64,000 nt of DNA from Earliella scabrosa (taxonomy: Eukaryota > Basidiomycota > Agaricomycetes > Polyporales > Polyporaceae): NCBI GenBank assembly GCA_022605405.1, contig JABYQQ010000007.1:186001-250000 (forward strand), written 5' to 3'. A program made the position numbers and the translations under genes. Below are positions 30,175-56,705 of the stretch, piece after piece (the stretch's first letter is position 1; every line of letters begins with the position of its first letter). The notes beneath the pieces were generated by a model. The model was not told where the DNA came from and ran no database searches. It was given only the letters and a program-made list of their open reading frames with translations.

Positions 30175-31704
30175 TCACGCAGCGGCCGCGCGCTGCTTGA
30201 GACCTTCTCGTACCAGTAAACACGCAGACAAGTCTAGTCCCTCGTCTGCGAGGCTCTTCTCCAGCCTGTCGAGAACCGCGTCCGAAAGCCGTCCCAGCGC
30301 CTTCATTCGCGCCTCGTCTTTGATTCCGACGTGTCGCAACGCATCCGCGAGGTCGGCTGACAGACCCATGTCCAGCAGGAACCGTTCTACTGCGTCCTCG
30401 TGCGACGGGGGCGGGGGTGCCGCGGCTACAACCTTGGACTTAGCCTTCCCCTGAATCTTCGTAGCGGCTGGTTTGGGTTTTTGGGATTTCACTTTGCTTG
30501 CAATTGGCCTGAATGTGAGCCCTTGTCGTGCAATCGTGTCGGGCGAAGACGGCTGAGGTGGGTTTGCCTGTTTGCCTTTCTCGGAGTGGAGATGCCAAGT
30601 CGGATTGGTGTACCCGCGATGAACGAGCCCGTTGACATGACTGACAAAGTTCCTTAGAGTGTACCCCGGCCCCGTGCATATGATCTGCGAGTGCGCGAAG
30701 AAGAGCCGATCAGATGTGCCACTGCGCGAACGGTGCGCAACCGTCACATACCTTGCTATCCGGACATATGAGGCACTTCACGCCCCAGCGGGGCCCATCT
30801 TCGAGGTAGAAGACCTTCAGTCTCACATTGGGATGCTCGCGTTTCACGTCCGTGATCGCCTTCTGGAGCCACGACGGTCTCTATAGAACGCGTCAAGCGT
30901 GTGAGCTGTACAAGGAGGTACTCCGATACTCACCTCAGGCGGGTGTACGGGCTGCTTCTCTGCCCGTTTGCTGGGAGAATGTGCGCTCGTGGAACCCTTC
31001 GGGGCACCAGTCGGATGAGAACGATCGGACACAGCACCATGTGTCTCCTGCGAAGGACCCGCGACGGGATGCTGAGATCGTGCGTTACGCGTCGGAGATT
31101 CTACAGCACTCTGTGCGACCTTCTTCTTTGCGAGAGGCGGTGGGCGGCGGGGGAGGACAACCGAGTCCATGAACATGCGGCGGGAGCGTTTCGGAGGGGG
31201 AGACCCGACTTTACTCGGAGACGGAGGCGCGTGCTCCGAGTCCGAAGACACGTAGAAGACCTCGGGTTTCTTCTCCTCGTCGTCATCCGAATCATACGTG
31301 GCACGGCGAGCATGTACATCGTCCGGGAACGCGCTCGGGGAGCCCGCGCGAGGATGAGGGTCTACTACTTGTGTGCACGGCAGCGACTTCAGAGGGCGTC
31401 ACGTCAGCCCAGTAGTCACGCTGCACTCACATTCAGTCTCCTTGCCATGCAGTCGCGCGGACTTGCGAGGCTTCAGCGTTTCCTCCACTTCCACTTCCTC
31501 CTGCTCCTGCTCCCGCTCCCGACGCTTGCCTTGACTAGTACTAGAGTGCTGGTCCAAAGGGAGCGCGCGCAAGTCATTGTCGTGTTCTTCCTGTTTTATC
31601 ATGTCGCTCGGTTCTTCTTTAATGTCTTCCTCTTCGACGTCGGAGCTGAGGAGATATACAACGTTGAGTGCCGCGCTGCTCGCAGAGGACTGGGCGCGCG
31701 ACAT
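30175..31704 (-). CDS. Family protein A: SIM-like motifs, C2H2-like finger, novel C-terminal domain
   Basis: I do not recognise this gene from known families, but it has three paralogs in this window. Exons (minus) are 31704-31431, 31367-30934, 30880-30752 and 30684-30175, giving 448 residues. The N terminus has two hydrophobic-acidic SUMO-interacting-motif-like patches (VVYLLSSDVEEED at residues 15-27 and VFYVSSDSE near 125). A disordered Lys/Pro/Ser stretch follows. The third exon starts RPSWLQKAITDVKREHPNVR and ends WGVKCLICPDSK. The fourth supplies IICTGPGYTLRNFVSHVNGL and VH, together a C-x2-C-x19-H-x5-H finger. The last 70 residues form the shared helical domain (VERFLLDMGLSADLADALR, VGIKDEARMKALGRL, LLVREGLK). 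Nuclear location is likely from the basic patches; function unknown. Confidence 0.75.
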
Positions 31705-32969
31705 GTCCGTGCGCGAAGGGTGTCACCGCGACTGCAATTGTGACTGGTATAGTCCCGTATCGTCAAGCGTCGCCTGCAAAAACGAGAAGCCCTAGACTCT
31801 CGAGCCAGATGTACTTCGTGGGTGGTTGAGAACATGCATGCAATGATGCCGTGGCAGGCGATTCAACCAGATCCAGATCTAAGTCCACGTGGAATTAGCG
31901 CCAAGGTCGTTCTAGCGCTTGCCCAATAGCGACGTATCTCCCCACTTGACTCTCTACCTCTTGTGTTGCAGCGTTTCACCTGTGTGGAGAACTATGACTT
32001 CCATGATGATTGGGAGGACTTGCTACAGACAAGCGTACAGCATGGAGTACTGAAACCGAAGTCGAAACGCACTTACAGTTCAGACTCTGAAATTCTGCGA
32101 CTGTCAAGAACGATTTGCACAGTCCGTGTTTACAGGAAATCGGAGGCGATGTCCACTTGTGCGTGTTCTCCATCTTCTCTACTGCTGAAGCCTCTCACTG
32201 ACTCCGGATTGAACCTTGAAGTGCCTGAAGAGCATTCGTCCGATGAACATCATGGCAGTGTGCGGGGGCGCACACCTGAACGCAGTCATCGAAACTGGGT
32301 TCTTGGATCTCTCCAAAAATCTATATTCTTTCTAGAGCTCTCGGAGAAGCATGCAAATGCCGGACCCAACGAATCACTCGGTCACGGCGCTTTTACCGCT
32401 GTTGTCGTAACTCGTCACTACGGGTGTTCCGTGTATACCGCGTCCAATGGCAACGATGCTCACCAACGTTTGAATGTCAGGCGGTTGGGTCTACTTCTCG
32501 AGATGGCTTCTACAACTCATTGCGTTCAAAGTACCGTGCCTCGCTCGATTGACCTTTTTGGCAAGCCGGGCTCCCTTCATTTTCTGAACACTCAACACTA
32601 GCCTTGGGTTCCGCCATCGTACGTTCCATACGCACGGAGACCAAAAATTAGCTCTGAGCGTACGGTACCACAAGGCGGCGATGATGGATGGTTAATGGGG
32701 CATTATATTGCCCCGAAACTGACGACATCTGGCCGCAGTGACCCCATCCCGACAGATCTTCCGGTGGTTCGTTGCTTTTTGCTCGCCATCATCTTTCGAC
32801 ATCTCGTTCGGGAGCTAACGTTACGAAAATATCACGACTTGTTCCGCCTTCATCGCGGCTCCAGACACTCATGATAGCACGCTCTTGAAAGCAGCGCTAC
32901 CCGCCTACTGCAAGTCACACACCCGTTCAAGCCACCGGTACTGTTGTCACAACCCAAGCGTACACAGCA
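31705..32969. other. Intergenic, possible weak ORF
   Basis: This covers the promoter side of gene A and the upstream region of the first secreted-protein gene. One plus-strand frame is open from about 31963 to 32601; its first ATG is at 32149 (150 codons). Its base composition is lower in GC than neighbouring genes, and no motif or splice support is visible. I do not call it a gene. Confidence 0.35.
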
Positions 32970-33389
32970 ATGTTCTCCGAACTCACCCTCCTCATCTCCA
33001 TCCTCGCCCTCACCGCGCGCGTCAACTCCATCCCAGCACCCCTCCCCACAAACAACACCGTTCACCTGGAGCCCGCCGCCATCGCCGCCGCACGCCTAAC
33101 AGCCCTCGTTCCCGCATCGGCAGCGGCCAACCCCACACTCCTCACGTGCTCCTCCCCAGGCTGCACGGGCGGATGCTCCCAGCTCTCGCTCCTCAATGCG
33201 GTCGGCAAATGCTTCTCCACAGTCCCCTTCACCTCGATGTTCCTCAGCGACCCGTCGTTCGTTCTCCCGCTCGGCGTCGTCGAAGTCGCGCCGGGAAACT
33301 ACGCGAACTGGGTGGCGCTCCCGCATCAGGGGGTCTGCTACAATCTCATCGGGGGGCAGTTCCGCCAGTACGGGGTCCGGAATATCTAA
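32970..33389 (+). CDS. Small secreted cysteine-containing protein 1
   Basis: A single-exon 139-residue protein with a classical signal peptide (MFSELTLLISILALTARVNS, cleavage probably after VNS). The mature part has a Cys cluster LLTCSSPGCTGGC, a further Cys in GKCF, the block APGNYANWVALPHQGVCYNL and an ending FRQYGVRNI. A second gene of exactly the same length at 38000-38419 shares this pattern. The family is not one I can name. Small secreted proteins with conserved cysteines in fungi are often apoplastic or substrate-interacting proteins, but no specific role can be read here. Confidence 0.8.
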   Translation: MFSELTLLISILALTARVNSIPAPLPTNNTVHLEPAAIAAARLTALVPASAAANPTLLTCSSPGCTGGCSQLSLLNAVGKCFSTVPFTSMFLSDPSFVLPLGVVEVAPGNYANWVALPHQGVCYNLIGGQFRQYGVRNI

Positions 33390-33722
33390 CCGCTTGGTTT
33401 GGGACTCGGGTGAGTGATGAGTGGTTTATGCCCAGGTAGCGTCGATCTCTGATGCACGGCTGGTAGGTCTGTATGTGTGCGAGTTGTCTCTGCTTATGAA
33501 TGTACCGCGTCGGATTACACATTCTGCTCTCATGATGTGTATGCGCGCGCCAACTGAGATGTTGCCTAGCCATTCTTGGCCCGGTAGGTAAACCCAATCG
33601 AACGCGCTCCCTCCGTATTCGTGCGCGTTTGCTTCCGTATGACCTAACCACGGAGCCTATCTCTGAACATGATAAACGCGTCAGTGGCCGGACAGCCTCA
33701 TCACCCATCCTCACCAATCTCT
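33390..33722. other. Intergenic, nothing recognised
   Basis: The 333 bp between the secreted-protein gene and the FAD monooxygenase; contains the monooxygenase promoter. No TATA box is obvious. Confidence 0.35.
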
Positions 33723-35585
33723 ATGGCTAAGTTCACTGTGGCTATCGTGTGCGTTCCATTCTAACAGCCTGTGGTGATTCTGAAGTGACTGACCTGGGCT
33801 TTCAACCGCAGGGGCGCGGGCATGAGCGGGCTCGTCTTCGCCATCTCCCTCCGGAAGCTCGCGCCAGACGTCGCGTTCGACATATACGAAGCGGCCTCTG
33901 AGCTGGGGGAGATCGGTGCGGGCATCGGCGTCCAGCCGCGTGCGTGGGCTGTCATGCAGGCCATCGGGCTCGAAGACGCGTTGCTGAAACTCGCCGGAGG
34001 TGGAGAGCGTCGCGGTCTGTCTCCGGTACAGTTGCTGCGGGGCACCCAAGGCTGACATATCATTACTCTGGTTGTCGCAGCCGTCACAGTCACCCATCGC
34101 AAGTCCGATCAAGGCGAAGGGATCAACTTCAGCCAGAAGGAGGTCACCGGTAAGCCATCCGCAAGCGGTGACTCTCCATGAATAATGACGGTGCTGACTT
34201 GAGACCCCTGCTAATGCTAGAGACGAGCTACACGTTCCACCGTGCCGACCTCCAGAACGCCCTGCTCGAGCACCTCGGCTCCGCGGCCAACCTGCATCTT
34301 GGGAAGCGTCTTGTCTCTTACATCCAGCCGGGTGACCGGAATGGGACTGCTTGCCCGATAGAACTTCGATTCCAGGACTGCGCAGGGGCGGTGTGCGACG
34401 TCCTGGTAGGCGCGGATGGAGTGCGATCGGCTGTGAGAGGAGCTATGTACTCCCAACTCGCGGACGCTGCGTTTGAGGCGGGACGAGAGCAAGAGGCTAC
34501 GGCACTGAGAAGTCATGTTCGCCCGGTACACTCGGGACTCGTCGTGTACAGGTCTCTGATCCGGAAGGAAGACCTGTCTCAGGAGGAAGGGGCGCACCCC
34601 GCGCTGAACAGACAAGGGGTCATGCTGGTCAGTCATATTTCACGACCTCTCAAGCGAACCTGCCCTCACCGTGTTTTGCGCACAGTATTGCGGGAAGAAC
34701 AAGGTACAGGAAACGTAGTCGACAGACTGCTTGTGACATGGACTGATGGATGCCGTCGTGGTTCAAGCACGTTGTCACGTATCTGGTCTCTCAAGGTCGT
34801 GCGATGAATGTCCTGGTCGATGTCGCAGAAGGAGAGGAAGGGACTGTGTATGAGGGCCCATGGACCGCCTCTGCCCGGAGCGACGAAGTTGTCAAACAAT
34901 TCTCCTGCTGGGAGCCGGACGTTCAGCAGATTATGAAGGTGAGCCAGACGACAGTGCCTTCACGTACCCTCGATGAACTCACATCACCCCGGGCGTAGCA
35001 TTTTAGTCCCTCGTCGAAGTGGACGATCGGGGTCGTGACCAAGTTGCCAACGTACGTTCATGGACGAGTCGCTCTGATGGGAGATGCGGTGCGTCCCTTT
35101 GTGTAGTATGCATACGCGATGGCGACTCACCTACGAGCGCAGGCCCACGCTATGACACCATATCAAGGCGCGGGTGCAGGACAAGGGTTTGAGGTGAGCT
35201 ACCCAGTAGTACCCACAGTCAGTACACCTTCTAACCCTTCTAGGACGCGTACATGCTCGCACAACTCCTCGGACGACCCGACGTCGACAGGCGCACACTC
35301 CCGGACGCGTTGAGAGCGTACGACGAGGTCCGACGGCCGTTCTCCCAGAACGTCGCGCAATGCTCCGACATGGGCGGGAAAACGATGCAGCTCCGAAGTC
35401 CGGAGTTCGTCGCACTCACGGGAGAAGAGAGCGCGACGGGAGATGCGCTTTCGCCGGAACAACTCCGAGAGATTGGCGTTGCAATCGAGCAGGCGAGTGA
35501 GTGGCGATTCGCTTCTACCATCGAGGAGGACAAGGTGTACGCTTTCCGTAAGCTCGAGGAAGCCATCGGTGGCAGGGTGCGATAG
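33723..35585 (+). CDS. FAD-dependent monooxygenase (salicylate hydroxylase-like)
   Basis: Class A flavoprotein monooxygenases use NAD(P)H and O2 to hydroxylate mostly aromatic substrates. The start is MAKFTVAIV, and after a 60-odd-nt intron it reads GAGMSGLVFAISLRKLAP (the FAD-binding GxGxxG-type loop) and IYEAASELGEIGAGIGVQPR. Later parts include TSYTFHRADLQNALLEHL, VCDVLVGADGVRSAVRGAMY (the DG motif) and, across an intron at 35089-35141, ALMGDAAHAMTPYQGAGAGQ (the GD motif binding the FAD ribityl chain), followed by FEDAYMLAQLLG. The end is KLEEAIGGRVR. All three family motifs are intact. Lignin-derived aromatics are plausible substrates in a wood-decay fungus, but that is inference. Confidence 0.87.
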
Positions 35586-35972
35586 ACATGTGGTCCCTCT
35601 GGGAGCACGACAACCAATACAATAATCGTGATACCGACTAGGTTATGGATTCGCCCGTACCGTCGTCCTCGTCGTAGAGGGCCAGAGAGAGAACATGGGA
35701 GTCGACAGCTTCGCGACGCGTCTGCAGGGGGTGTCACGTGTAGCGCGCATTCGGAGCTTGGGCTGAGCGTCTATGCGCGGAACTTGTGTTTCCGACGACA
35801 TTCCCGCTGACCTCATAGGCTCGCCCGACCAGACGTGGGGCCCCGGATTTGTTCTCTGTTCATCCCACACGACTGCCAGCATACGCTCTCCCGTACTCTC
35901 CTACAGCCACATCCTCCGTTAACAACACAGCTTGAAGAGACTTGATGAACTAGACAATCTACTGTCTCTCGA
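35586..35972. other. Intergenic, nothing recognised
   Basis: The 387 bp between the monooxygenase stop and the carrier start. No TATA box or repeat is evident. Confidence 0.35.
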
Positions 35973-37212
35973 ATGCCCACCGATGGATCTCCGAAGGACA
36001 GGCAGAGCCTACACTACGTCGTCCGCTCAGGTGTTGCAGGAGGAATTGCGGGTTGTGTCGTACGTTGTTCATTTCTGCAATCCAACTCTGCATGATGCAC
36101 GTACCCTTACAACTCGCGCGCAGGCGAAGACCGTTGTCGCGCCTCTGGACAGAGTCAAGATTCTCTTTCAGGCGTCGAACCCGGACTTCCAGAAGTACGC
36201 AGGTGCGCATCTTTTTGTCTTCTCTGCTTGAGAGCGACATACAGACTGTCTCGGACAGGAACATGGAGCGGGGCATTCCGTGCGGCTGCACAAATCTACT
36301 CCGAGAACGGTGTCCGTGGCCTACTCCAGGGCCATTCTGCCACCCTTCTCCGCATCTTCCCGTACGCGGCCATTAAATTCATGGCGTACGATCAGTTAGA
36401 AGCCGTACGTCCTATACTCTACCTCCCTCATTGCACCAAGTGTTCTCAGCCCGCTGTTAGGTACTTATGCCGACGCGCGAGAAACAAACCAACGCTCGCC
36501 GTTTCATCGCCGGTGCAGCCTCCGGTATGGCCCATCTTCCCGTCCACGCTTTGCCTGCAGCTTGTCTCACACCATACCCTACAACGCACCTATAGGCGTG
36601 TCATCCGTCTTCCTCACCTATCCCCTCGAACTCATCCGCGTCCGCATGGCTTACAGTACCCGCCATACTTCCAACCCGACAACCCGCCCGTCCTTCCTCT
36701 CCGCCATGCGCATCATCTACGCCGAGGGTCCCTCGCGCTCCTCCACCGCCGTAGAGAGCACCTCGCAGAACCTCTTCGCGCGCTTCCCCATCCTCAAGTT
36801 CTATCGCGGATTCACCGTCAGCGTCGCAGGCATGATCCCCTACGCCGGCACGTCCTTCCTCGCCTGGGGCTTCCTCCGCTCCAAACTCCTCCCGCCCAAG
36901 CCTTCTTCCTCCCCGTCTTCCTCATCGCATAAGAGTAAGCCGGTCACGGACCTCGCGTTCGGCGCCGTCGCGGGCGCGCTCGCCCAGACGGTCTCGTACC
37001 CGTTCGAGGTCGTCCGGCGGCGCATGCAGGTCGGCGGGCTCACGCAGCCCGACCGCTGGCTGCGGTGGTCGGAGACGGTGCGCGTCGTGTGGGAGACGCG
37101 GGGCTGGAGGGGGTTCTATGTCGGGCTGAGCATTGGGTATCTGAAGGTCGTCCCGATGACGGCGGTGAGCTTCGCGGTGTGGCAGGCGATGAGACCTGTG
37201 CTTGGGATATGA
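35973..37212 (+). CDS. Mitochondrial carrier, Leu5/SLC25A16-42 type (CoA transporter)
   Basis: This carrier family moves coenzyme A or related nucleotides into the mitochondrial matrix. The start reads [20 protein letters not shown], then [28 protein letters not shown] across an intron at 36062-36123. The three solute-carrier repeats are marked by [15 protein letters not shown] and YPFEVVRRR. The segment [20 protein letters not shown] and the [25 protein letters not shown] region are typical of Leu5. About five exons are needed. The third repeat is preceded by a low-complexity Pro/Ser/Lys insertion ([15 protein letters not shown]) that looks like an extended matrix or cytosolic loop. The C terminus is [10 protein letters not shown]. 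Confidence 0.9.
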
Positions 37213-37999
37213 ATCCTGAGGCGATGGAGGCGAGGCGGGGAATACTGCTATGCCTCCAGTAAGATCCGTAATGTATCCGTAGTGCACGCTGATCCAGACG
37301 TCACAGATCGTATATCGTAGACGGCGCCTCGCTGACGCCCTTGAGGGCGGTCGTCGTAAGTGCCATTCCATATGTCCAGTCTGGAGACCATGCAGCGGCT
37401 TCAATCAGTCGTGACTAGTAAGTCTCCCTCAGATAGCTGGTCGAAGGCATTGCATTGGTGGGCTGTATGATGGGTGGGGGCGAGAGGTCTGGTGTCCCTG
37501 CAAGTGTATCGGTGGGTGCGTACCAACTGTCCCTGTCGGACAGTTGCCGTGTTGACATTCTCGCATATAGCTTTTGCATTGTTGCAACAGGACAGACCTC
37601 AACTTCGTGCCGACTGGTCCGTGAGGACTTCCAACGGCACTTACTGTATGCATCTTATCCTGATCTCGTGAACATGCTCGACTGTGATGGATACGAAGCC
37701 TTCCATGTGGGTCGTCCACGTCGTCGGGAGCTGAACGCAACTGCGAAACGCCTCCTTCCGTGTCAAAGGTAGATTGACCCAAGCCAGGGCAGGAAGTCCT
37801 GCGAGCGCAGGTATAGGCAAGGAAACGCTTTGTTCGGGGCATCTCCGTCTAGCATGGACCTTCTCCTCAGCATCCGAACGTTGCACCCTGCTCTGGGTCA
37901 GGGACATCCGGAGATTCAACACTATAAATGCAGGAAGGCCTCGAGCCATGCATCGCAGCAGAGTAGCCATCCTCCAGACCAGACAACACCTACTCAGAT
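37213..37999. promoter_or_regulatory. Intergenic with TATA box of secreted protein 2
   Basis: About 790 bp with no gene. A good TATA box (CTATAAATG, 37922-37930) lies 70-80 bp before the ATG at 38000. Upstream 37213-37700 contains nothing I recognise. Confidence 0.55.
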
Positions 38000-41706: not shown

Positions 41707-42868
41707 ATGGTTGGACGAGTCGACTCAAGACGAAGTCCTCATCGTGACTATATCCTCATCAGCTCGGACGAAGAGGACAGTCAGGACGTGGAGATGAATG
41801 CCTCGCTGATGGAAAGAGGGCCACATAATACTGACCAAGAGGCGACCCCAAATGGTGAGAGTATGATGCATATATTATCGTAACATCTTGCTTAAACCGT
41901 GTCGTAGATCGACATGCTCAGCAATTCGCATACACCGAAGTGCGCAACGAAGCTTCGAGCCATGGTTTGGCCGGCCATCGCACCACGTTCGATGGAGGAG
42001 AATGTCCCCCCTCACAGCACCTCATTGTCGACTATTTAGAGGGGCGCGTCAAGAGCGAGCACGTAGACAACAGGAGGTCTACCACGCTAGCGAGCGTCCC
42101 GCCTGAGGGGACTTATGGCTCTCAGGTGACAGACACCAATGCCGACCAGGTACTACTGGGTTGTGATTCTCCTTACTTCATGCACCTACTCTTACACCCG
42201 TGAATAAGTCATATGGCAAATCATCGAGACAGGAAGAGAACTCGGAGTATCAGGACGGCACTGTCCAAGCTGGAGCTCGAGACTACCTAGAACACCACGA
42301 GAACTCTCAACCATTCGACCTCGGACTTCCTGGCACCATCGAAGTGCGACGCAGCCCGACAGATAGTGAGGCGGAGGTAGATGAGCTGATTGACGACTCG
42401 CCCGAAGACACTCCGAATGGCCCGGAGTATCACACCTCTGTGTCGGGCATCGCTGCTACAGCCAGCTCCTCTACGTTCCCCTCCTTGTCCCTCCTACGAG
42501 TCACCGATCACTATGCTCAGCACACAACTCGACCTGCTGTCGCTTCTGGGTTTCCTGGAATGCCGGAGAACCAGGACGGAGCGCCCAGAGACGAAGCACC
42601 TCGTGCTGCCCATTTGAACCCTCCGCCTCTTCCTCTCGGAGACCCGGTCGTACGATTCCTAGAAGAAGTCGGTCTCTCGGCTGATATGGCAGGGACTTTG
42701 CGCGAGGTGGGTATAACCGACGAACGCCGGATGCGTGCCTTGGGCGCCCTTCATCACTCTGCGTTGGAGGGACTCCTCAGGCAGTTGCGGACGATGCACG
42801 TCGACTACACAGCTCGTCTGTTGATTCGTGAAGGACTGAAGCGGCGGGCGGCGCAGCTTGGTGGGTGA
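41707..42868 (+). CDS. Family protein B: SIM-like motif and novel C-terminal domain, no zinc finger
   Basis: A paralog of A, C and D. Exons 41707-41854, 41908-42149 and 42209-42868 give 349 residues. The start is MVGRVDSRRSPHRDYILISS, followed at once by the acidic patch DEEDSQDVEMNAS. This matches the hydrophobic-SSD-acidic motif of gene C, including a shared (E/L)-x-NAS just after it. The middle is disordered and acidic (SPTDSEAEVDELIDDSPEDT). Unlike A, C and D there is no P-x-WL module and no CxxC/HxH motif. The last 73 residues are the shared domain (VVRFLEEVGLSADMAGTLRE, VGITDERRMRALGAL, LLIREGLKRRAAQ). Its neighbour gene C starts only about 300 bp downstream on the same strand. Confidence 0.72.
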
Positions 42869-43174: not shown

Positions 43175-46100
43175 ATGCAACGATCCACGCAGACCCCAGA
43201 CGTGGACGATCCGGACTCAGAATCCGACATCTCGGACGTCTCGGACGTCTCAGAGTATATTGGCAGTCTTGGTCGAGGCCGCCAATCTGCGTCACCTGCG
43301 CGAGCGACATCTGCCAGGTTGCGCGGTATTGAGGCGCGCTGTGAGTCGACCTGCTCTTTCGATGTATCATGCAACGGATATACTGACCTTTGGTAGTCAT
43401 ACGTACCTCTATTTCACCTGATCGCATCATCCGACGCCGCCGTAAGTTACGGCGGTATGGCTTCGTCTCGCCGGATCCGTGCCAGGTCATTGACCTGTCT
43501 TCAGATTCCGAAGATCCCGAGGACGAGCTCAACGCCTCGGTTGCGGGACCGCCTAGGAAGCAGGCTCGCATGATCATAGCGCGCGATCGATTCCCTGGAT
43601 TACGGTCACCTGAATATTCCAGTTCCTCTGGCGCCATCTGCGCCAACGTAGATGTCGTTCAACGGTCCACAAGCACGGAGACCTGCACACGCCCGTTCGC
43701 GTGTCCACTGGGCCCTCCAATTGGACGCAAGGTCGATACTTTTTCAACGAACAGATGTGGTCAAGTGAGTCTTATCTTCTATTGTGCGTCCGCAAAGCTG
43801 ACATGTTGGAAATCATAGCGTCCAGTCTGGCTTCGCTATGCTCTTGGAGAGCTGTACAATCAGTTTCCAAATATCCGTTTTGTGACAAAGCAACGCGTGC
43901 GTTACCTCAGTCATGCCGATCAACCCGATACCTGGCAGATCGAATGCAGAGAATGCAAGGACCTCGTCGTAAGGCACTGGTGACTGGCATCTCACTCTAT
44001 ACATTCGTTGACAGCTCTGTAGATCATCGGCGCAGGCCCTGGGAAGACCCTCGGTCGTCTCAAGAACCATATCGAACAACTCCACTCAGGCCTTCGAGTC
44101 CAGGCTTGCGCGGGAGCCCATTCAGTAACAATCCACAGTATTGTGTACCATTCTGGCTCACTAAACGCCAGGATTGTGGCCCATTCGAGTTCGATCGAGT
44201 GAAATATTTTAATTTGTTGATGGCCCGATCGAATATGTATCAGCTTCCCAATAGATAACTTCGATCGAACGGCTCTGAGCAGCCTAATAATGGGTCTGCA
44301 CACCCACCCAGCTGTCAGATAAGTAATGCCCGGGCGGCGGGGGCGGCGGGCGGCAATTCACCGGGCAGAATTCAAATGTATTGGTTGAGTCCGATCGACT
44401 TGAACAAGTTGTTTTGCTGATAGTTCGATCGGATATGCCTCAGCTACCCAATACAGCATCTCGATCGAACAACTTGTGAGTGACGCTGAGGGTGGCTATC
44501 AGTAATGGATCTACACATCCGCCCGGTCAATAATCCAGATAATACCTGGGCGGCTACCCAGCAGGGCCGGGCGGGCAGTATATGTGGACACACTACTATG
44601 TTCGATCGACATAATGCAGTTGCTTGGACGGTGTTCCGATTGGCCTAATGTAATGGATTAAATAGTATTTCGATTGATCTGATATACTTGCTTGAGTTCT
44701 GTTCCGATCGAATGGCCACATGGCTTGGTGACTGGCATCGATCGGACCTTGTATTTATGTCAATACTGTGGCCCGAACGAATCCATTACCATCACTGTGA
44801 TTATGGCCCGAACGGATTTACATACTTTGCAGCAAATTGATGTTGATCGAATGTACAATATTGCCTTTCTACTGGTCCGATCGAGGTCATCGCATGGCCA
44901 AGAAGACAAGTCGATCGAACACACATTTGTTTATAAATCTGAGACATGTTCATAAATGTGTTTAGAACGAGCCAACAACATGAGCAGTTACTATGTCCGA
45001 TCGAAAATGCATATGGTGAAGCCATGTGTTTGGATCCACACACTGTTGTGACCAGATATACAATTCAATCGAAATGACAGCATAGTCAGAGGTCTACTTC
45101 GATTGGATAATTGGTTGGCCTGTTACAGGATTGCTAGACCCGCCCGGGAAATGACCGGGCCAGAACTGAGGGCGCCCGGAGTGGTCTATGTTTTTGTTAC
45201 AGTATTACTAGACCCGCCCGGGAAATTGCTGGGCCAGAACTGAGGGTGCCTGGAGTGGTAGACATTTGTATTGTAGTGTTACTAGACCCGCCCGGAAAAT
45301 GACCGGGCCAGAACTGAGGGTGCCCGGAGTGGTAGACATTTATATTGTAGTGTTTCTAGACCCGCCCGGGAAATTAGTGGATTAGAACTGAGGGTGCCTG
45401 GAGTGGTAGACATTTATATTGTAGTGTTTCTAGACCCGCCCGGAAAATTCCTGGGCCAGAACTGAGGGTGCCCAGAGTGATATACATTTTTATTGTAGTG
45501 TTACTAGACCCGCCCGGAAAGTTCCCGGGCCAGAACTGAGGGTGCCCGGAGTGATATACATTTTTATTGTAGTGTTTCTAGACCCGCCCAGAAAATGACT
45601 GGGCCAGAACTGAGGGCGCCCGGAGTGGTAGACATTTGTATTGTAGTGTTACTAGACCTGCCTGGAAAGTTCCCGGGCCAGAACTGAGGGTGCCCGGAGT
45701 GATATACATTTTTATTGTAGTGTTTCTAGACCCGCCCGGAACATTCCTGGGCCAGAACTAAGGGTGCCCGGAGTGATATACATTTTTATTGTAGTGTTTC
45801 TAGACCCGCCCAGAAAATGACTGGGCCAGAACTGAGGGCGCCCGGAGTGGTAGACATTTGTATTGTAGTGTTACTAGACCTGCCCGGAAAATTACCGGGC
45901 CAGAACTAAGGGTGCCCGGAGTGGTAGACATTTATATTGTAGTGTTCCTAGAACCGCCCAGGAAATTAGTGGGTTAGAACTGAGGGTTATATCACTCCGG
46001 GCACCCTCAGTTCTGGCCCGGGAACTTTCCAGGCAGGTCTAGTAACACTACAATACAAATGTCTACCACTCCGGGCGCCCTCAGTTCTGGCCCAGTCATT

Positions 46101-47867
46101 TTCCGGGCGGGTCTAGAAACACTACAATAAAAATGTATATCACTCCGGGCACCCTCAGTTCTGGCCCGGGAACTTTCCGGGCGGGTCTAGTAACACTACA
46201 ATAAAAATGTATATCACTCTGGGCACCCTCAGTTCTGGCCCAGGAATTTTCCGGGCGGGTCTAGAAACACTACAATATAAATGTCTACCACTCCAGGCAC
46301 CCTCAGTTCTAATCCACTAATTTCCCGGGCGGGTCTAGAAACACTACAATATAAATGTCTACCACTCCGGGCACCCTCAGTTCTGGCCCGGTCATTTTCC
46401 GGGCGGGTCTAGTAACACTACAATACAAATGTCTACCACTCCAGGCACCCTCAGTTCTGGCCCAGCAATTTCCCGGGCGGGTCTAGTAATACTGTAACAA
46501 AAACATAGACCACTCCGGGCGCCCTCAGTTCTGGCCCGGTCATTTCCCGGGCGGGTCTAGCAATCCTGTAACAGGCCAACCAATTATCCAATCGAAGTAG
46601 ACCTCTGACTATGCTGTCATTTCGATTGAATTGTATATCTGGTCACAACAGTGTGTGGATCCAAACACATGGCTTCACCATATGCATTTTCGATCGGACA
46701 TAGTAACTGCTCATGTTGTTGGCTCGTTCTAAACACATTTATGAACATGTCTCAGATTTATAAACAAATGTGTGTTCGATCGACTTGTCTTCTTGGCCAT
46801 GCGATGACCTCGATCGGACCAGTAGAAAGGCAATATTGTACATTCGATCAACATCAATTTGCTGCAAAGTATGTAAATCCGTTCGGGCCATAATCACAGT
46901 GATGGTAATGGATTCGTTCGGGCCACAGTATTGACATAAATACAAGGTCCGATCGATGCCAGTCACCAAGCCATGTGGCCATTCGATCGGAACAGAACTC
47001 AAGCAAGTATATCAGATCAATCGAAATACTATTTAATCCATTACATTAGGCCAATCGGAACACCGTCCAAGCAACTGCATTATGTCGATCGAACATAGTA
47101 GTGTGTCCACATATACTGCCCGCCCGGCCCTGCTGGGTAGCCGCCCAGGTATTATCTGGATTATTGACCGGGCGGATGTGTAGATCCATTACTGATAGCC
47201 ACCCTCAGCGTCACTCACAAGTTGTTCGATCGAGATGCTGTATTGGGTAGCTGAGGCATATCCGATCGAACTATCAGCAAAACAACTTGTTCAAGTCGAT
47301 CGGACTCAACCAATACATTTGAATTCTGCCCGGTGAATTGCCGCCCGCCGCCCCCGCCGCCCGGGCATTACTTATCTGACAGCTGGGTGGGTGTGCAGAC
47401 CCATTATTAGGCTGCTCAGAGCCGTTCGATCGAAGTTATCTATTGGGAAGCTGATACATATTCGATCGGGCCATCAACAAATTAAAATATTTCACTCGAT
47501 CGAACTCGAATGGGCCACAATCCTGGCGTTTAGTGAGCCAGAATGGTACACAATACTGGTACTACCATTTCTACTGAACTCTGTGTGCGCGGACCGGTGC
47601 CCACAGCCCTCGACCTCTGGCACGACAACCGATACGGATGGGCACGTGATGCTCCGTTTCCTTCAGAAGCAAGGGCTCTCGTCCGACGTCGAACCTGCCC
47701 TCAAGACCGTCGGCATCACTGATCTTGCCCGCATGCGGGCCTTGGGAGCCCTTCCTGATGCTGCCCTCGATAGGCTCGAGACTGCATTAGCGGGTGAGGG
47801 ACTCGACCTTGCCGCACGGCTCCTCATCCGCGAAGGGCTCCGCGACTGCGCCAATGTACGAGCCTGA
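43175..47867 (+). CDS. Family protein C: SIM-like motif, basic block, C2H2-like finger, novel C-terminal domain; intron holds a 3.4-kb palindrome
   Basis: Exons 43175-43340, 43397-43764, 43819-43968, 44023-44124 and 47607-47867 join in frame to 348 residues. The N terminus is acidic (DSESDISDVSDVSEYIGS). Exon 2 has SISPDRIIRRRRKLRRYGF and the SIM-like CQVIDLSSDSEDPEDE. Exon 3 starts RPVWLRYALGELYNQFPNIR and ends ECRECKDLV. Exon 4 gives IIGAGPGKTLGRLKNHIEQL and H, completing C-x2-C-x19-H-x4-H. The last exon ends in the shared domain (LRFLQKQGLSSDVEPALKTV, GITDLARMRALGALPD, LLIREGLRD). The fourth intron, 44125-47606, contains a complete palindromic element; without it the intron would be 59 nt. 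A Copia element starts 39 bp after the stop. Whether the gene is still expressed is not known. Confidence 0.75.
44136..47558. mobile_element. 3.4-kb palindromic (foldback-like) element in an intron of gene C
   Basis: Positions i and 91694-i are complementary from 44136/47558 inward. The arms are 44136-45706 and 45988-47558 (1,571 bp each), essentially identical where compared by eye, with one mismatch noticed near 45590. The outer ends read CAGTATTGTGTACCATTC and its complement. Each arm has an AT-richer outer part studded with CGATCGA-type motifs, a GGC-rich spot near 44331-44354, and an inner block of 74-bp repeats. No transposase-like frame is visible. Identical 80- and 87-codon frames on the two arms are by-products of the symmetry. 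No target-site duplication is obvious. CAG...CTG ends hint at a hAT relationship; this is only a suggestion. Confidence 0.85.
45134..46560. repeat. 74-bp minisatellite, two head-to-head blocks
   Basis: Units start with CTAGACCCGCCCGG and contain CCAGAACTGAGGGTGCCCGG. Successive CTAGACCC starts at 45134, 45208, 45282, 45356 fix the period at 74 bp. The left block (to 45987) has about 11-12 units, and the right block (45988-46560, inverted) about 8. Unit variants occur in the same order from the outside inward in both arms (for example GAAATTAGTGGATTAGAAC in the fourth unit), so the arms arose by copying, not by independent expansion. About 3.8 extra units (45707-45987) form the central loop. 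Confidence 0.9.
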
Positions 47868-47906
47868 ACATGACGACGATGTGAGAACATATCCGGATAT
47901 GTCGGA

Positions 47907-48505
47907 TGTTGAACAATGGACTACGAACAGTAGACGCGCATTAGGCGCTATGGGCACTGCTTCTTACGATAGATCTTAGGCTGTGCTTCTTTCTTTCCAT
48001 ATTAGGTATACGTTGTACGATACACATGGTTACTAGGCTTCTCTTTTGTCCAGTCCATTCCAGTGCGTTCTTCTACACTCCGGACTCTTCTTAGACTGTT
48101 CCAGATCGTCCTTGTGACCATACTTTGTTCTCCATTTGTCGTTATCTTTGTTCTGTCTGAGTCATCCTTCGTCGCTCCTTACTCATCCTCGACTCACTCT
48201 GACTCAGACACATCACATGCCCTCCTTACTATCGCTTACTCATGCAGCTCCTTTACGGTATATAAGGAGGACTCTCTGGGACTCGTCTCCTCAGTCTTTC
48301 ACTCACTGACTGAGGAGTAAGTACTCGTCTTACCTATGCGTTCATATGCTCTTACTTACAAGTACCTGTGTAGCTTGTCTGTCCGCTCACTTACTAGGTA
48401 CTTGGCATTATGCTAATATAGTCTTTCACTCACTGACTGAGGACTTGTCTGTCCGCTCACTTACTAGTCGCTTGCGACATCGCCTCACAGGTTCTCACTC
48501 CATCA
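47907..48505 (+). repeat. 5' LTR of the Copia element
   Basis: Starts TGTTG and ends ATCA. It contains a TATA box (GTATATAAGG) at about 48258-48267, a candidate RNA start region just after, and a repeated CTTGTCTGTCCGCTCACTTA segment (about 48371 and 48446). The sequence immediately downstream, GGTTATGAGCCC, is where a primer-binding site would be expected. Confidence 0.93.
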
Positions 48506-49454
48506 GGTTATGAGCCCTGCGCTCTGACCGTTGCTAGTCGTCACATCGCGCGCACCCGACGACTTCTACCCTCGTGCACATCCTCCACTAACTCCTTAGC
48601 TCTTGACTGTGCCCGCCGACACTGCTGCCAGGGGGACATTCCTGCGCTCGTGACGCAGCCCTGAGCGCTCTTTAGTAGTCACATAGCTCGTAGTATCGTT
48701 GTACAACCTATTGTGCTCTCGAGGCACACGGGTCTTTTTGGATATCCCTCAGCCAGGCCACGCACTTGCGCCCGCCAGCTGTTGTATCCGGGGTGTCATC
48801 ACCTTTGGAGCCGGAGGACAACCGTTCGGACCCTCCTTACGATACCATTTTCATACATACGTTGTAGCAGACTCTTTCTGGGCACAGTTGGCAACTTCTA
48901 CCCTTGGCATTAGCATATCCGACTTGCTGGTGTTTAAGGTTCACCTGAACAGGTGTTCATCTCTACGTTGCCTTTGCACGAGGCTTTCCAAATCATCGCA
49001 ATCTTGAACCTGTCGCAGCGACACAGTGGCTTCATCAGACGACGAACCGTTTGATTGTAGTCACTCATACCATCGGCACGACCGCGTTGACCAAAGGGAC
49101 GTCTTCTGGGACGAGTCAGATAGAAGGTGGTACTACTGCGAACGACAACCGTGTCCTAACCGGGAGTCGGAAGTAGCTCAACCAGACAACTGCACTGTAC
49201 CTCGTCGTAACGTACCTATCGCTCCTGACCAGGTCTGCCGACCACGAACACCGGACACATCCTCGTCATCCTCATCCCCTGCTTCGTCTGAGCACGAAGT
49301 TGCAAATATCCTCGAAGATCCTGCGGAGCCTCCAGTCCCAACTCCTCTCCCTTCTATCGTTATCTCTCCGCCTACACCGACTCTCCCTCCTCTACCAGCC
49401 CTAGATCTCATCGTCAACCAGCCTGACTCAACCGACTTTGTCTACTCCTTCACC

Positions 49455-52400
49455 ATGTCGGAAGCTGGAATGGAAAAGAGTCTTCCTCAGCTCCACGGGC
49501 AGGAAGGCTACAAGGAATGGGCTCGTCAGATGAAGGGCTATCTCATGATGATCGATGCATGGGATATCGTCAGCGGCACGGAGAGTCAACCAGCTGCCAC
49601 TGATGCGGCTGGTCTCAAGGATTGGAAGAAGAGAGATTCCCGTGCAAGTGGTATCCTCATGTACAAAACCACTGCCGAGGTAGCCAAGTGCTATGAAGGG
49701 AAGAACACCTCGAAGGAGATCTGGGATGCCCTGAATACGACCTACGAGAAGACCGACAATGGGTACAGTTTCTCCCGCTTCGAACGGCTTCTCAACTATC
49801 CTCGTTTCAACGAGAACAAGTCGATCGTCGACCAGGTCCAGACCTTCATCGGGCTGATGAACGAGCTTACCACAGGCTCCACCAACACCCTCGCCGAGCA
49901 TATCAAGGTCTACTGGCTCTTCTCCAAGATGCCGGATTCCTATCGCCCATCGATCTCCACTATCCTCCACACCACGGCTGAGACGGACCTGACCCTTGAA
50001 AAGGTTAAGCCGAAACTCAAGCTCGAGGACTCCCTTCGTGGTACATCGATCGGTCAGGCAAACAAGATCTCGAAGCCGAAGTCCAAGCCCAAGCCCCCTT
50101 GCGAGCATTGCGGTAAGACGAACCATGACTCGTCGAACTGCTACAAAAAGTTCCCGGAGAAAGCTCCGAAGCGGAACAAAGGCAAGGGCAAGGACAACGG
50201 CAACGGCAACGGGAATCAGTCAGGTGGATCTGGGAATAATAATGGACATAACCACGCGCACACTCTAGCAGCCTTTGTACCTGTATCTACGAGCACCATC
50301 AACAAGATCTCCTTTTCAGCTTATAAGGCGGACAACGCCAAAGACATGGACCTTGAGCGAACCACACTCTGGCTCATGGATTCTGGAGCATCTCAACACG
50401 TTACTGGCTGCCTCGAGGACTTCACTGAGTACCGTCCATATGACACACCTGTTCTGTTTGGCACCGCCCAGGCAGGTAGTGACGGACATGTCCAAGGACT
50501 CGGTGAAGGTACGGTCAAAGGATACACTTATGTGGAAGGCAAACGGGTCTCCTTCACACTTCAGAACGTCTGCTACGTTCCAGCAGCAGGCAATACCCGT
50601 CTGTACTCCACTGGTGTCATCGAGCGCGCGAAGGGGTTCATCTATCAAGGGGGATACTACATGAGGATCTTTGACTCAAGGCCGGAAGGCTTTGTCGAAT
50701 CTGGCAAGACGGTTAAGGTTGTCGGCAATGAGGTGGTTACTGCCCACTACGCCGCATCACACAACCTATACTACTTTCTGCTTGAGAATGCCGAACGTGA
50801 TCTCAATGCTGCGTCCCACACTACACTCGATCACGACCTTGCTCATCGTCGCTGGGGTCATCCTGGCAAGGAAGCGGTCAAGCGTCTTCCTGATGCAGTC
50901 AACGGTGTAGATGGCATTGACTCTAGTTCATCGGACAAACCATGCGAAGGATGCGCGAAAGGCAAAATGCATCGCCGTCCGTTCCCTCCGTCTTCGAAAC
51001 GCGTCTCGGAACCATGCGAACCCGTCCACATGGATGTCGCTGGGCCGATGAGCACCTCGATTGGTGGTTACAGCTACTTCTGCACCTTCATCGATGACTA
51101 CACCGGTCTCGCCTGTGTCTACTGCCTGAAGCGTAAATCCGATCAGGAGGCCGCTTTCAAGGAGTACAAAGCCTGGGCTGAGACACAGACCGGTCGTAAG
51201 ATCAAGAAGGTACGATCCGATCGAGGGGGGGAATATCTGTCCGATTCGTTCGAGTCATTGCTACGCGAATTCGGGATCGAGCACGATAAGACGTTGCCTG
51301 GCTCGCCTCAGCAGAATGGACGTGCTGAACGCTTCAACCGGACCATTGAGGAGAAGTCACTCTGTATGCTTCACCAAGCCGGTCTCTCTCATGGTTTCTG
51401 GAAACTCGCACTTGAAGCAGCCGTTCACATCTATAACCGTCAGCCAATGAAACGACTCAAGTGGCAATGCCCCATCACACTCTGGACCGGTAAGAAACCG
51501 GACGTCTCATACTTCCGTGTGTTTGGGTGCAAAGCCTATGTACATGTGCAGAAGGACAAGCGTCATGGGAAGCTCGACGTGAAGGCAGTCGAGAGGACGT
51601 TTGTGGGCTATGAACCGGGTTCAAAGGGGTATCGTCTATGGAACCCGACTGCCCACCAAGTCGAAGTATCTCGCGATGTGATCTTCGATGAGGACGTATT
51701 TCCTGCACGTGCAGACACCGGCACTCGTCGCGCTACCCCCGACGACAGTCCGTTCCCTGCTCAACCGTCAGAGGATTCTTCCAATGACGATGTTGATCTC
51801 CCTGTTCCTCGTGATAACGACGAACCTCCTCCTCCCGCTCCGCCACAAGACCCTGCTCCTGCTCCGCCCGAAGCTGAACCGCAGCCGCCGCAACCACAAC
51901 AGCCTCCGCCGCCTCCCGCTCAGATTCCTAAGCCGAATCATCGTCGCGGACGTCATCCTCCTGCCGCAGGAGATGCCCCTTCTCCTCGTCGCTCTGAGCG
52001 ACAGACCAAGGGTGTCCCTTCAAAGGCACGGACCGAGGACAACGTGTACGGTGATGAACCTCCCGCTCAGATAGATGCTAGGACCGATGCGGATGGTGAA
52101 CAGGCTGAGGCACAATCAATACTCGCGTTTATCCATTACTCTCGGTACAAGTCTGGTATTCCTGAGCACCATAAGGATGCCATGGCTAGACCGGATCGCG
52201 AACATTGGAAAGCGGCTGAGCGAGCAGAGTACGAATCACTAATGGCTAATAAGACATGGGTCTTGGTTCCTCGCCCAAAGGACCGATCCGTCGTCACATG
52301 CCGTTGGGTCTATGATCGGAAGTCAGATGGTCGCTACAAAGCACGTCTTGTAGCTAGGGGATTCACGCAGGTCTATGGGAAGGATTACCATGAAACCTTC

Positions 52401-54279
52401 TCACCCGTCGCTCGTTTCGAGTCCATCCGTTATCTCTTTGCGCATGCTGCCCTAGAGGACTGGGACGTCGACGCGATGGATGTAAAGACTGCGTTCCTCA
52501 ATGGCGACCTTGACGAGGAGGTCTACATGGAACAACCGGAAGGGTGGGTCGCGAAAGGCAAAAAGGATCACGTTTGTCTGCTTAAGAAGGCCATCTACGG
52601 TCTCAAGCAAGCCTCTCGCCAGTGGAATGTCAAAATCCATGACTCGCTCGTTCAACAGGGATTTGTTCGGACGTACTCTGATGCCGGAGTCTACGTATAT
52701 CGCCGACAAGGGGGGGATTCAGACCCTGATCATGTCACTATCATTGTCTTGTATGTCGACGACCTACTTCTCATGGGGAAAAGTCGTGTACAGATTGACA
52801 AGGTCAAGAAGGCGCTAGGCAAGCAGTACAAGATGACGGACTTAGGTCCGGTACAGCGATTCCTTGGTCTACGCATACGTCGAGATCGTCAAGCTAAGAC
52901 ACTCGACATCGACCAGGAAGAGTACATCGAGGCTATTCTGGAGAACCATCAGATGGCTAACTGTACGCCTGTGCGCACTCCTCTTCCCTCTGGTGCCGTG
53001 CTCGAAGCCGCTCAGACGGAGGCATCGGCAAAACTTCTCAAGCGTTTCCAGAGCTTGATGGGCAGTCTTCTCTATGCCTGTCTTGGGACGCGACCCGACA
53101 TCGCGTTTGCCATCAGCCGTCTCGGTAAATACAGCGCTAACCCCTCGGAAGCACATCTTCACTATCTCCAATACGTGCTTCGCTATCTCCGGGGGACTTC
53201 ACATTATCGTCTGCGCTATGACGGAGCGTCTAATCAGTACTTTCAGTTCCGGAGTTGCAACCCACCCGTCTATTAGACGTCGTGGGTTGCAACCCACGCG
53301 CTTAGCACTGTTCCCCCCATAGCCCACCGCGGACTTGTCATTCTCGCCGGCTGCCGTCCTCCATGGAGGGCGTTTTGCGCCGTCGTCGGGCCCCCGCCTG
53401 TTGCTGGCGCTCCCACGTGTGCCGCCTCCCGCCTCCCGCTCCACGTTGAGGACCGGCGTCTAACCCCGCCCCTCGTAATTCATTCAAACCCCCAAAGGGA
53501 GCCGGGGTGATTTAATCGCGCGAACGAGGCTTTAGTGTGCCCGCCTGAGCGCGACCGGCTCGGGGGACCCCCCGAGCGCAGCGAGGGAGGGGAGGGAGCG
53601 CGAATGGCGGGTCCTCTTCGCGCACGGGCTGGAAGTCAGGACTGACTCCAAAGGGACTTAGCGAGTCACTGGGCGGCTCGCAAGCGAGACGATGATGCCA
53701 AATATGGCGGGATTTTCGTTAAGCGAGTGGGTTGCAACCCACGACGTCTAATAGACGGGTGGGTTGCAACCCCGGAACTGAAGTCCCTCGTCTAATGCCG
53801 GTTTGACCGCGTTTTCCGATTCAGACTGGGCAGAGGATCGCGATGATAGGCACTCGCAAACTGGCTTCATCTTCAAGATGGCAGGTGGCGCAATCTCATG
53901 GGCGTCGCGACGGCAGCCGACGATTTCGCTCTCTTCTACTGAGGCGGAATACAAGGCAGCGTCAGACACCAGCCGCCAGATGATGTGGCTAAGGACGTTT
54001 GGAGATGAGTTAGGGGACGACATGAGTGCGTCTACGCCCATGTGTATGGATAACCATGGCGCGATCTTCCTCTCTGAGAACCCAGCCATCGACAGGCGTA
54101 CCAAGCACATAGAGGTCCACTACCATTTTGTGCGCGAGTATCTCGCCAGTGGGAGTATGGACATCTATTACATCGCGAGCAAGGAGAATCTGGCAGATGC
54201 GCTAACGAAGAATGTCACCTTCTCTGTGGTTGACTACTTCGTACAGCACTCTGGTCTCATTTCTTCCTCCGCGTCTTGA
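49455..54279 (+). pseudogene. Copia Gag-Pol polyprotein, interrupted
   Basis: The first ATG in frame is at 49455 (MSEAGMEKSLPQLHGQEGYK). Gag ends with a zinc knuckle CEHCGKTNHDSSNC (CX2CX4HX4C). Protease motif WLMDSGASQHVTG follows, then an integrase with the HRRWGHPG His region, and DDE residues in HMDVAGP, RSDRGGEY and RFNRTIEE. A Pro-rich linker precedes reverse transcriptase (ARLVARGFTQ, MDVKTAFLNGDL and the YVDD box in LYVDDLLLMG). RNase H residues appear after the insertion (FSDSDWAED, SSTEAEYKAA, DNHGAIFLSENP). The frame stops at 53276 inside the inserted element, and the RNase H part resumes at 53797. About 143 open codons precede the ATG (49026-49454) and include WDESDRRWYYC, which looks coding. 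Confidence 0.93.
53235..53788. mobile_element. hAT-like non-autonomous element inside the Copia RNase H region
   Basis: The 8-bp sequence CGTCTAAT occurs at 53227-53234 and 53789-53796. Removing the element and one copy restores an in-frame Copia segment (DGASNAGLTAFSDSDW). The element's ends carry inverted repeats with TTCAGTTCCGG(A/G)GTTGCAA followed by CCCACCCGTCTA and its complement, reaching about 60 bp inward. The interior is GC-rich, with no protein-coding frame of note. An 8-bp duplication is the hallmark of hAT transposons, so this is best described as a hAT-type MITE. Confidence 0.88.
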
Positions 54280-54281
54280 AC

Positions 54282-54290
54282 GAGTGGGAG
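54282..54290 (+). other. Polypurine tract of the Copia element
   Basis: GAGTGGGAG lies immediately before the 3' LTR, as expected for the plus-strand primer. Confidence 0.7.
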
Positions 54291-54889
54291 TGTTGAACAA
54301 TGGACTACGAACAGTAGACGCGCATTAGGCGCTATGGGCACTGCTTCTTACGATAGATCTTAGGCTGTGCTTCTTTCTTTCCATATTAGGTATACGTTGT
54401 ACGATACACATGGTTACTAGGCTTCTCTTTTGTCCAGTCCATTCCAGTGCGTTCTTCTACACTCCGGACTCTTCTTAGACTGTTCCAGATCGTCCTTGTG
54501 ACCATACTTTGTTCTCCATTTGTCGTTATCTTTGTTCTGTCTGAGTCATCCTTCGTCGCTCCTTACTCATCCTCGACTCACTCTGACTCAGACACATCAC
54601 ATGCCCTCCTTACTATCGCTTACTCATGCAGCTCCTTTACGGTATATAAGGAGGACTCTCTGGGACTCGTCTCCTCAGTCTTTCACTCACTGACTGAGGA
54701 GTAAGTACTCGTCTTACCTATGCGTTCATATGCTCTTACTTACAAGTACCTGTGTAGCTTGTCTGTCCGCTCACTTACTAGGTACTTGGCATTATGCTAA
54801 TATAGTCTTTCACTCACTGACTGAGGACTTGTCTGTCCGCTCACTTACTAGTCGCTTGCGACATCGCCTCACAGGTTCTCACTCCATCA
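54291..54889 (+). repeat. 3' LTR of the Copia element
   Basis: Same length and, by eye, same sequence as the 5' LTR, including the TATA box (about 54642-54651). It is followed by the TCGGA target duplication. Transcription reading out of it would proceed toward family gene D, 487 bp downstream. Confidence 0.93.
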
Positions 54890-55375
54890 TCGGAGTCTCT
54901 TCCGAGAAGGCGGTGCGTGTTTGGTGTTTCGACGATCGGTGATTTTGTTTTGTTAGGGATGTCATGTCATTCGAAGCCGAGACGAAGAGTCTTGTTGCGG
55001 AAGGCCGGACCCCCTCTTCTGCCAGTTATCCTCTGTACGAATGAAGAGGCGTCGCAAGTGAGTGCATGCATACTTTTGTAGTGGTAGCGTCGTGACATTG
55101 GTCAGCACAATTTATTCCGGCGTAGTTCATGTTCCTCCATCGTGCCTCAATCGTCCAGGGTCCTTCGATCGTGTTCCGATTTGTCAATTTGTGGTCCTGA
55201 AGCGGCTGCGGCACCAGGCAAAGGTGACATGAAACAATATCGGGCAACGGAACGCCCTACACCGAGAAGCATATCTTCTCTCATCTCCGTAATCCAGGTG
55301 CTCTTGCTCACGACACCGCTCTCTCTCTCTGTCGCGATTGTCGACCATACGTTGTAGGCATCTCTCCCATATGTC
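54890..55375. other. Spacer between the Copia element and gene D
   Basis: About 490 bp formerly contiguous with the 3' flank of gene C. It contains the promoter of gene D; no TATA box is clear. Confidence 0.4.
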
Positions 55376-56705
55376 ATGGGCCAAACAGAATCGCAGATGG
55401 AGATGACAAGGGAGGAATCTGAGGAGTTGGGGTCAACGCAGGTGCGGAGTCAACTCGCTGGTAGTCACAATCATTGAACACTGACATCGTTCCTTCAAAC
55501 CTTAAGGATACGGAGACCACTCTCCGTGACCAGGAGCATTCACAGGGACTAGATCGGATAACATGCGACGCTGAAGACTCGCAATCATCGCGCGGCCGCG
55601 GCCATTACAGGGAGAGTCTGCAGCGCACATCCGCTCGCCAGCGCGGCATCCCTGCCCGCGGTGAGCATATATTGAACTTCCCTGGTAGGCGACTCTCTAC
55701 TCATGCTGGAAAATCTGTGCCACAACAGAGATCCGAACTTCAATCTCGCCTGACCGTGTTCTCCGTCGACGACGCAAGAAACGCCGCATAGGATGGACAC
55801 CTGAGGAAGAGGACCTGATTGAGCTACACTCAGGCTCTGATCAAGAGCTGGAGCCTGAGCGTGACGATTCCATGCGAACACAGCAGAGTTCACAATTGTC
55901 GACGACTTCAACGGGCTCCACGACACTCCCCCGTACTGTTGCTCATGTGACTCCACTTTCGTGCCCACGCCGTCGTTCCCGCGTTGCTCTGGCGTCTCAT
56001 GCTTCAATTGACCGTCGGAGAGTCCTTCCAAGGCGCTCTCAGCCGAACGGCCATCCGGAAGGGGTGAGGATGGAGCGTTCCGGTGGATATACGATCATGC
56101 TAACTCGTCGCAGCGTCCTCAGCCCCCACCATGGCTTCGCCTCGCAATGGGAAACCTCTACGTCGCCTTCCCGCTGGTGCGTTTTGTCCTTCTTCCGAGG
56201 AGCTCAGGCTTGGGTCCGGAGTGTCCCAGGAGCTGGCAGGTCCAGTGTCAACATTGCAATACAAACCCAGTACGTCCATGTAGCCACGCGTATATCTTGG
56301 CTCTAACTATGTCGCGTTCTCCGTCTACGGCTCCAGCTCTTCCCGGCAGGACCAGGTCAGTCCCTTCGTCACTTCATCGACCATCTAATCTCTACCCACC
56401 GCCACCTCCGCTCCGCCGCCGCGTCTGAGGGTGGCATGCGTGCAGGAACCGGCGATCGCGAGCGCAATAGCGGCCGACCTGTCGTCGAGCGATTCCTGGC
56501 CGAGTACGGTCTGCGAGCAGACATTGCGCCGGCCCTGGAAGCAGTCGGTATCATCGATGAAGCTAGGATGCAGTCGCTCGGACGTCTGTCTGACGAAGCT
56601 CTGGACAAGCTTGAGCGCGGGCTGGCGGAGCAAGGCCTTGACCTCGCAGCCCGCCTGCTCGTCCAAGAGGGTTTGCGCGCCTGTGCACGACAGGCCCGAC
56701 CGTGA
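55376..56705 (+). CDS. Family protein D: SIM-like motif, basic block, C2H2-like finger, novel C-terminal domain
   Basis: Exons 55376-55441, 55507-55660, 55729-56063, 56114-56269 and 56337-56705 join in frame to 359 residues. The start is MGQTESQMEMTREESEELGS. Exon 2 ends TSARQRGIPAR, and exon 3 begins (E)IRTSISPDRVLRRRRKKRR then EEEDLIELHSGSDQELEPE. This is a near copy of gene C's TSARLRGIEAR, SISPDR and SIM region. Exon 4 has RPQPPPWLRLAMGNLYVAF and ends WQVQCQHCNTNP. Exon 5 supplies LFPAGPGQSLRHFIDHLIST and H, giving C-x2-C-x19-H-x4-H. The C-terminal domain is VVERFLAEYGLRADIAPALE, VGIIDEARMQSLGRL, LLVQEGLRACARQ. Same exon count and same intron phases as gene C. Apparently intact. Confidence 0.78.

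Follow-up and report, generated by a model that had tools for sequence, protein, structure and literature searches.

In M. oryzae, the C-terminal region of Snf5 (SMARCB1), a subunit of the SWI/SNF chromatin remodeller, is reported to have bound Taf14 in yeast two-hybrid (PMC9861326). Two further groups of proteins invite comparison with the genes described here: the CGGBP1-type proteins, derived from hAT transposases, which combine a small BED-like finger with a small C-terminal domain, and the transcription and chromatin proteins that carry SAM domains (LEAFY, Polyhomeotic and p63/p73). Here we describe four related genes, A to D, clustered within 26 kb of a 64,000-nucleotide stretch (the window; G000:C7:186001-250000) on contig C7 (2,598,436 bases) of the 51.67-Mb assembly of the wood-decaying polypore Earliella scabrosa. 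The likeness of A, C and D to Snf5 lies in a P-x-W helix, a C-x2-C pair, GPG-x-T-L and spaced histidines, in identical order, and in two phase-0 introns, of which the one inside the finger occupies the identical position and the one upstream a closely similar position; unlike Snf5, A-D have no detected SNF5 domain (PF04855) and carry a predicted SAM-fold domain instead. From the CGGBP1 type they differ in having, in A, C and D, a Snf5-related finger with this common intron, and in a C-terminal fold that appears SAM-like, while the finger of the SAM proteins named above differs from that of A, C and D. On balance we favour, with some reserve, the view that A-D and their relatives constitute a polypore family of nuclear, chromatin-associated proteins in which a Snf5-type finger was captured and joined to a SAM-type domain.

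Judged from profile matches and introns, the finger shows homology to the C-terminal module of Snf5. Eight module sequences have P-x-W, W-x3-C, GP and one histidine in common, and the pattern C-x2-C / H-x4-7-H (zf-BED / C2H2-like; putative zinc ligands) is found in seven of them, the second cysteine being absent from the model of P0004 (one of the public relatives P0001-P0005 described below). A profile built from the eight had Snf5 in PDB 23fj as the best of 23 sequences listed (E 3.3e-4; the two Snf5 stretches taken singly gave E 25 and 0.83). The E. scabrosa genome has SNF5-domain genes on contigs C16 and C18, and downstream of the C18 domain, on the same strand, lies a P-x-W and finger module (528109-527798), with a stretch between the two that we take, by eye, to be GATA-like. 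This module matches residues 667-766 of the 785-residue PDB Snf5 (E 6e-15); because of its order, its strand and this match, we infer that it is part of the C18 Snf5 gene. With the finger profile it scores 47.2 bits, the best of 2000 shuffles reaching 9.8. In Snf5 (that of the E. scabrosa genome being used for the intron comparison) and in A, C and D, a phase-0 intron interrupts the finger exactly 4 residues before GPG, and another phase-0 intron precedes P-x-W by 3 residues in Snf5, 1 in A and C, and 4 in D. In the model of P0001, the finger region is predicted as a helix, three strands and a helix with a local confidence (pLDDT, predicted local distance difference test) of about 80-88, the whole model having a pLDDT of 60.3 and a predicted template modelling score (pTM) of 0.26. 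The finger of A, C and D, as a Snf5-type module, is not a wholly new part.

Genome searches with single queries weigh against this relationship: the Snf5 module reached only Snf5 itself and one match on contig C3 (E 0.42), the first module exon of A found A only, that of C found C and D and not Snf5, and the relative from Fomes likewise found C and D. The C3 match (C3:871693-871842, 34% identity) lies in another open frame. As an observation in its own right, the Snf5 C-terminal module (G000:C18:527798-528109) is conserved with the solved Snf5 and was matched by no Pfam model, which points to a Snf5 C-terminal finger outside the Pfam models.

The four genes are real and related, as first proposed, with one correction that concerns C. 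Spliced by script from the DNA, A, B and D give 448, 349 and 359 residues with zero internal stops; C gives 347 or 348, also without internal stops, depending on the donor chosen for intron 3, and the better donor together with the earlier splice yields 348. The lengths of 349, 348 and 359 given in the earlier note for B, C and D are thus reproduced, except that what it took for the last intron of C is a transposon. All other introns of A-D are GT...AG introns of 50-68 nt, and the exon joins of A align with annotated relatives across introns. A, C and D are alike in their intron phases (phase 1 in the N-terminal half, phase 0 before P-x-W, phase 0 inside the finger), and D has one additional intron at the gene start; the supposed fourth intron of C is the insert, and A and D have none there. 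The order of SIM-like patch (resembling a SUMO-interaction motif), P-x-W module, finger and C-terminal domain is present in A and C. D has the same order, but its acidic patch is degenerate and contains no strict SIM-like motif; B, as had been claimed, has only the SIM-like patch and the C-terminal domain, and a finger vestige in B was not shown. The public model of C (NCBI C8Q76DRAFT_429867, P0007, 232 residues) is identical to its N-terminal part, has introns 1 and 2 as in our model, runs into intron 3 and ends before the insert.

Sequence searches place the family beyond E. scabrosa, so that it is not private to this genome. With residues 225-448 of A as query, five proteins among 2902 candidates were found (P0001-P0005; E 1.8e-41 to 1.4e-32), from the genera Lentinus, Cerioporus, Fomes, Daedaleopsis and Polyporus; a part of D found 0 among 2367 candidates. 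A profile search returned six among 7994 scored, namely four of the five (without Fomes), an environmental fragment almost the same as the last exon of A, and P0007. Since the search requires shared exact words, these counts are lower bounds. The named relatives are hypothetical proteins, one with a UniRef label of BED type, and the full architecture matched no named family in the searches made, as the earlier note expected. The Fomes relative has two C-terminal domains in tandem. In an alignment of nine members, 27 of the 29 invariant columns fall within the finger or the C-terminal domain. Against the whole genome, the C-terminal domain of A has four matches at E<=0.001, all in the cluster, and the Fomes relative reaches two further distant sites on contig C7 (E 4.2e-5 and 0.007). 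P0006, an ENA fragment (contig of 649 bases) near-identical to the last exon of A, extends back into intron 3 and is therefore likely to be genomic DNA from a closely related strain.

The sequences of A-D are those of old duplicates under constraint, with the C-terminal domain under purifying selection. Over the six pairs of SAM-fold domains, the proportion of synonymous differences (pS) is 0.76-0.83 and that of nonsynonymous differences (pN) 0.26-0.39, and third codon positions are richest in differences in all six, including the pairs with B and C. Selection, which the earlier note had proposed, is accordingly present, but in the C-terminal domain it is purifying rather than diversifying (pN < pS). 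A and D look intact, and C is interrupted by a transposon in this assembly. That A alone is a working gene, the other three being duplicates in decay, is a doubtful alternative: C is split and its public model truncated, B is without the finger, and D is without a strict SIM-like motif and absent among the annotated proteins scored, but B, D and the insert flanks of C have kept their frames free of internal stops or frame loss over saturated synonymous distances, the third-position excess extends to every pair, and the splice sites are intact.

For the last 70 residues, high-confidence prediction gives five helices in a SAM-like arrangement; as a predicted SAM fold, this domain is not a wholly new part. 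Between 35 and 44 of 68 residues are identical in the six paralogue pairs. Structure comparison of the domain gave SAM domains in 42 of the 50 listed rows, spanning the whole domain, and the predicted model has the five helices of the SAM fold. At the level of sequence, neither SAM_1 nor SAM_2 of Pfam was found above the curated cut-off in A, C, D, the last exon of B or P0001-P0005, and A-D had no similarity to known SAM proteins exceeding that cut-off. One might see in the domain a generic small helical bundle of the RAD51 N-terminal, NusA or BAF type, as RAD51/Dmc1 take the other 8 of the 50 listed rows, NusA (ranks 3 and 4) and BAF appear in another structure comparison, and the Z of the structure matches stays near 8. 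Set against the predominance and whole-domain coverage of SAM in the listed rows, and the weak sequence link to Pfam SAM_2 of a second SAM-like family of the genome (E 0.017, under the cut-off, in one of six pieces scanned), we judge this unlikely. The four genes of that second family lie in another local cluster (G000:C7:1050404-1067752); they have SAM-like domains in tandem and an N-terminal part of another kind, for which Pfam gave no match.

Another possibility is that these are transposon-derived genes, with a domesticated hAT transposase BED finger (as in the CGGBP1 type) followed by a Hermes-type DNA-binding domain. C-x2-C / H-x4-7-H spacing is a BED-like rule, and the UniRef label of P0001 reads 'BED-type domain-con...' (the name is cut). 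Such domestications exist: one CGGBP is reported in the fungus Rhizophagus, and Pfam is reported to miss CGGBP1 itself (PMC8097297). The Pfam zf-BED model (PF02892) was nevertheless unreached at E<=10 in ten sequences (four from the window and six public, including the partial model of C) and in three module peptides, as was PF04855 by hmmscan in A, C, D, the last exon of B, P0001-P0005 and P0007. No Pfam match to a Hermes-type domain was found after the finger, a result to be read with the reported failure of Pfam on CGGBP1 (PMC8097297) in mind. With significant profile homology to Snf5, the common finger intron and a SAM-like domain roughly 25-75 residues from the finger, a hAT origin is improbable.

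If the Snf5 reading is correct, the module would derive from the two final Snf5 exons, and the finger would dock the protein where the Snf5 C-terminus docks, on chromatin or on a partner; by analogy with M. oryzae, Taf14 is the first candidate. The SAM-fold domain may self-associate or pair with the other SAM-fold family of the genome, and the SIM-like patches may recruit SUMO-modified partners. The proteins could then serve as chromatin adaptors that oligomerise and perhaps compete with SWI/SNF or recruit it, and the finger-less B could act only via its SAM-fold domain. The nuclear or chromatin role put forward in the earlier note is now better founded, since the finger relates to the Snf5 C-terminal module. 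A Polycomb-like system particular to polypores is a long shot: in it, the captured finger would guide polymers of the SAM-fold proteins to sites of SWI/SNF, A and D would counter the remodeller or redirect it, B would cap the polymers or tune them, and the tandem-SAM cluster of the contig would provide partners for co-polymerisation. In this locus a piece of a widespread remodeller subunit can be traced, intron included, inside a new lineage-specific protein with an oligomerisation-type fold, and its natural variants (finger and SAM, SAM alone) give direct handles on function.

The SIM-like motifs are suggestive of SUMO binding and do not amount to proof. A strict pattern set for this analysis (a hydrophobic core, then an acidic/serine run) occurs in five of nine proteins, namely A (two sites), B, C, P0001 and P0002, and is absent from D, P0003, P0004 and P0005. 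None of 5000 shuffles matched the count in A; B, C, P0001 and P0002, with one motif each, are equalled by about 2-6% of shuffles.

The element in C was inserted into the last coding exon: reconstruction of the empty site gives a frame of 349 residues, in which a single exon carries the reading from the finger into the C-terminal domain. A and D likewise lack an intron at this position. The insert is flanked by a 7-bp target duplication, TGCGCGG (44107-44113 and 47586-47592), has 74-bp direct repeats in its middle, and by end comparison has the termini GAGCCCATTCAG... and CACAGAGTTCAG... The proposed intron (3,482 nt, from 44125) has its donor GT 11 bases inside the left end of the element. Although this GT and a downstream AG allow an in-frame join, it is very improbable that the insert is spliced out and C still yields 348 residues, as such an intron, with its perfect 1.5-kb hairpin, would be exceptional beside the other introns of the cluster and straight reading into the insert stops after 287 residues. 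The identical arms and the still open flanks of C suggest that the insertion is recent. Searching the genome with 576 bases of the element start gave nine matches, of which two fall within the copy in the window. Another complete copy (C7:971256-977997) lies between TCCTAGA repeats, has arms of 1,587 nt that are 95% complementary, and contains no open frame of >=120 residues. For the copies on C23 and C40, the stretches examined held a single end each, and C24 and C12 have short matches. These long palindromes, with target duplications of 7 bp, form a family of elements in this genome.

Table 1. Coordinates of the genes, predicted parts and mobile elements in the window
Feature	Position	Strand	Remarks
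Gene A	exons 31431-31704, 30934-31367, 30752-30880, 30175-30684	-	448 aa
A, Snf5-type module, first exon (P-x-WL ... C-x2-C)	30752..30880	-	
A, module, second half (GPG-x-T-L ... H-x5-H)	30613..30684	-	
A, SAM-fold C-terminal domain	30187..30390	-	predicted
A, SIM-like motif 1	31633..31662	-	VVYLLSSDVE
A, SIM-like motif 2	about 31231-31260	-	VFYVSSDSEH
Gene B	41707..42868; exons 41707-41854, 41908-42149, 42209-42868	+	349 aa
B, SIM-like patch	41749-41778	+	without finger
B, SAM-fold domain	42647-42850	+	predicted
Gene C	43175..47867; exons 43175-43340, 43397-43764, 43819-43968, 44023-47867	+	last exon split by insert
C, SIM-like motif	43486-43515	+	
C, finger	43819-43968 and 44023-44094	+	
C, SAM-fold domain	47649-47852	+	predicted
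Palindromic transposable element	44114..47585	.	3472 bp; arms at least 1571 bp, fully complementary
LTR (long terminal repeat) retrotransposon between C and D	47907..54889	+	LTRs 47907-48505 and 54291-54889, each 599 bp
Gene D	55376..56705; exons 55376-55441, 55507-55660, 55729-56063, 56114-56269, 56337-56705	+	359 aa
D, finger	56114-56269 and 56337-56411	+	
D, SAM-fold domain	56484-56687	+	predicted

B, C and D form a head-to-tail array that two insertions have lengthened, and the repeated local duplication noted earlier is clear. The palindromic element and the LTR element together make up about 10.5 kb of the 26-kb cluster span; without them, the three genes follow one another with gaps of ~0.3 and ~0.5 kb, and A lies about 10 kb from the array on the opposite strand. 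The two LTRs are identical, TCGGA stands on either side of the element, and its long frame reads as Copia-type. This frame stops close to 53276; inverted arms of 80 bp at that point (53242-53321 / 53703-53782) hint at an insert nested within the element.
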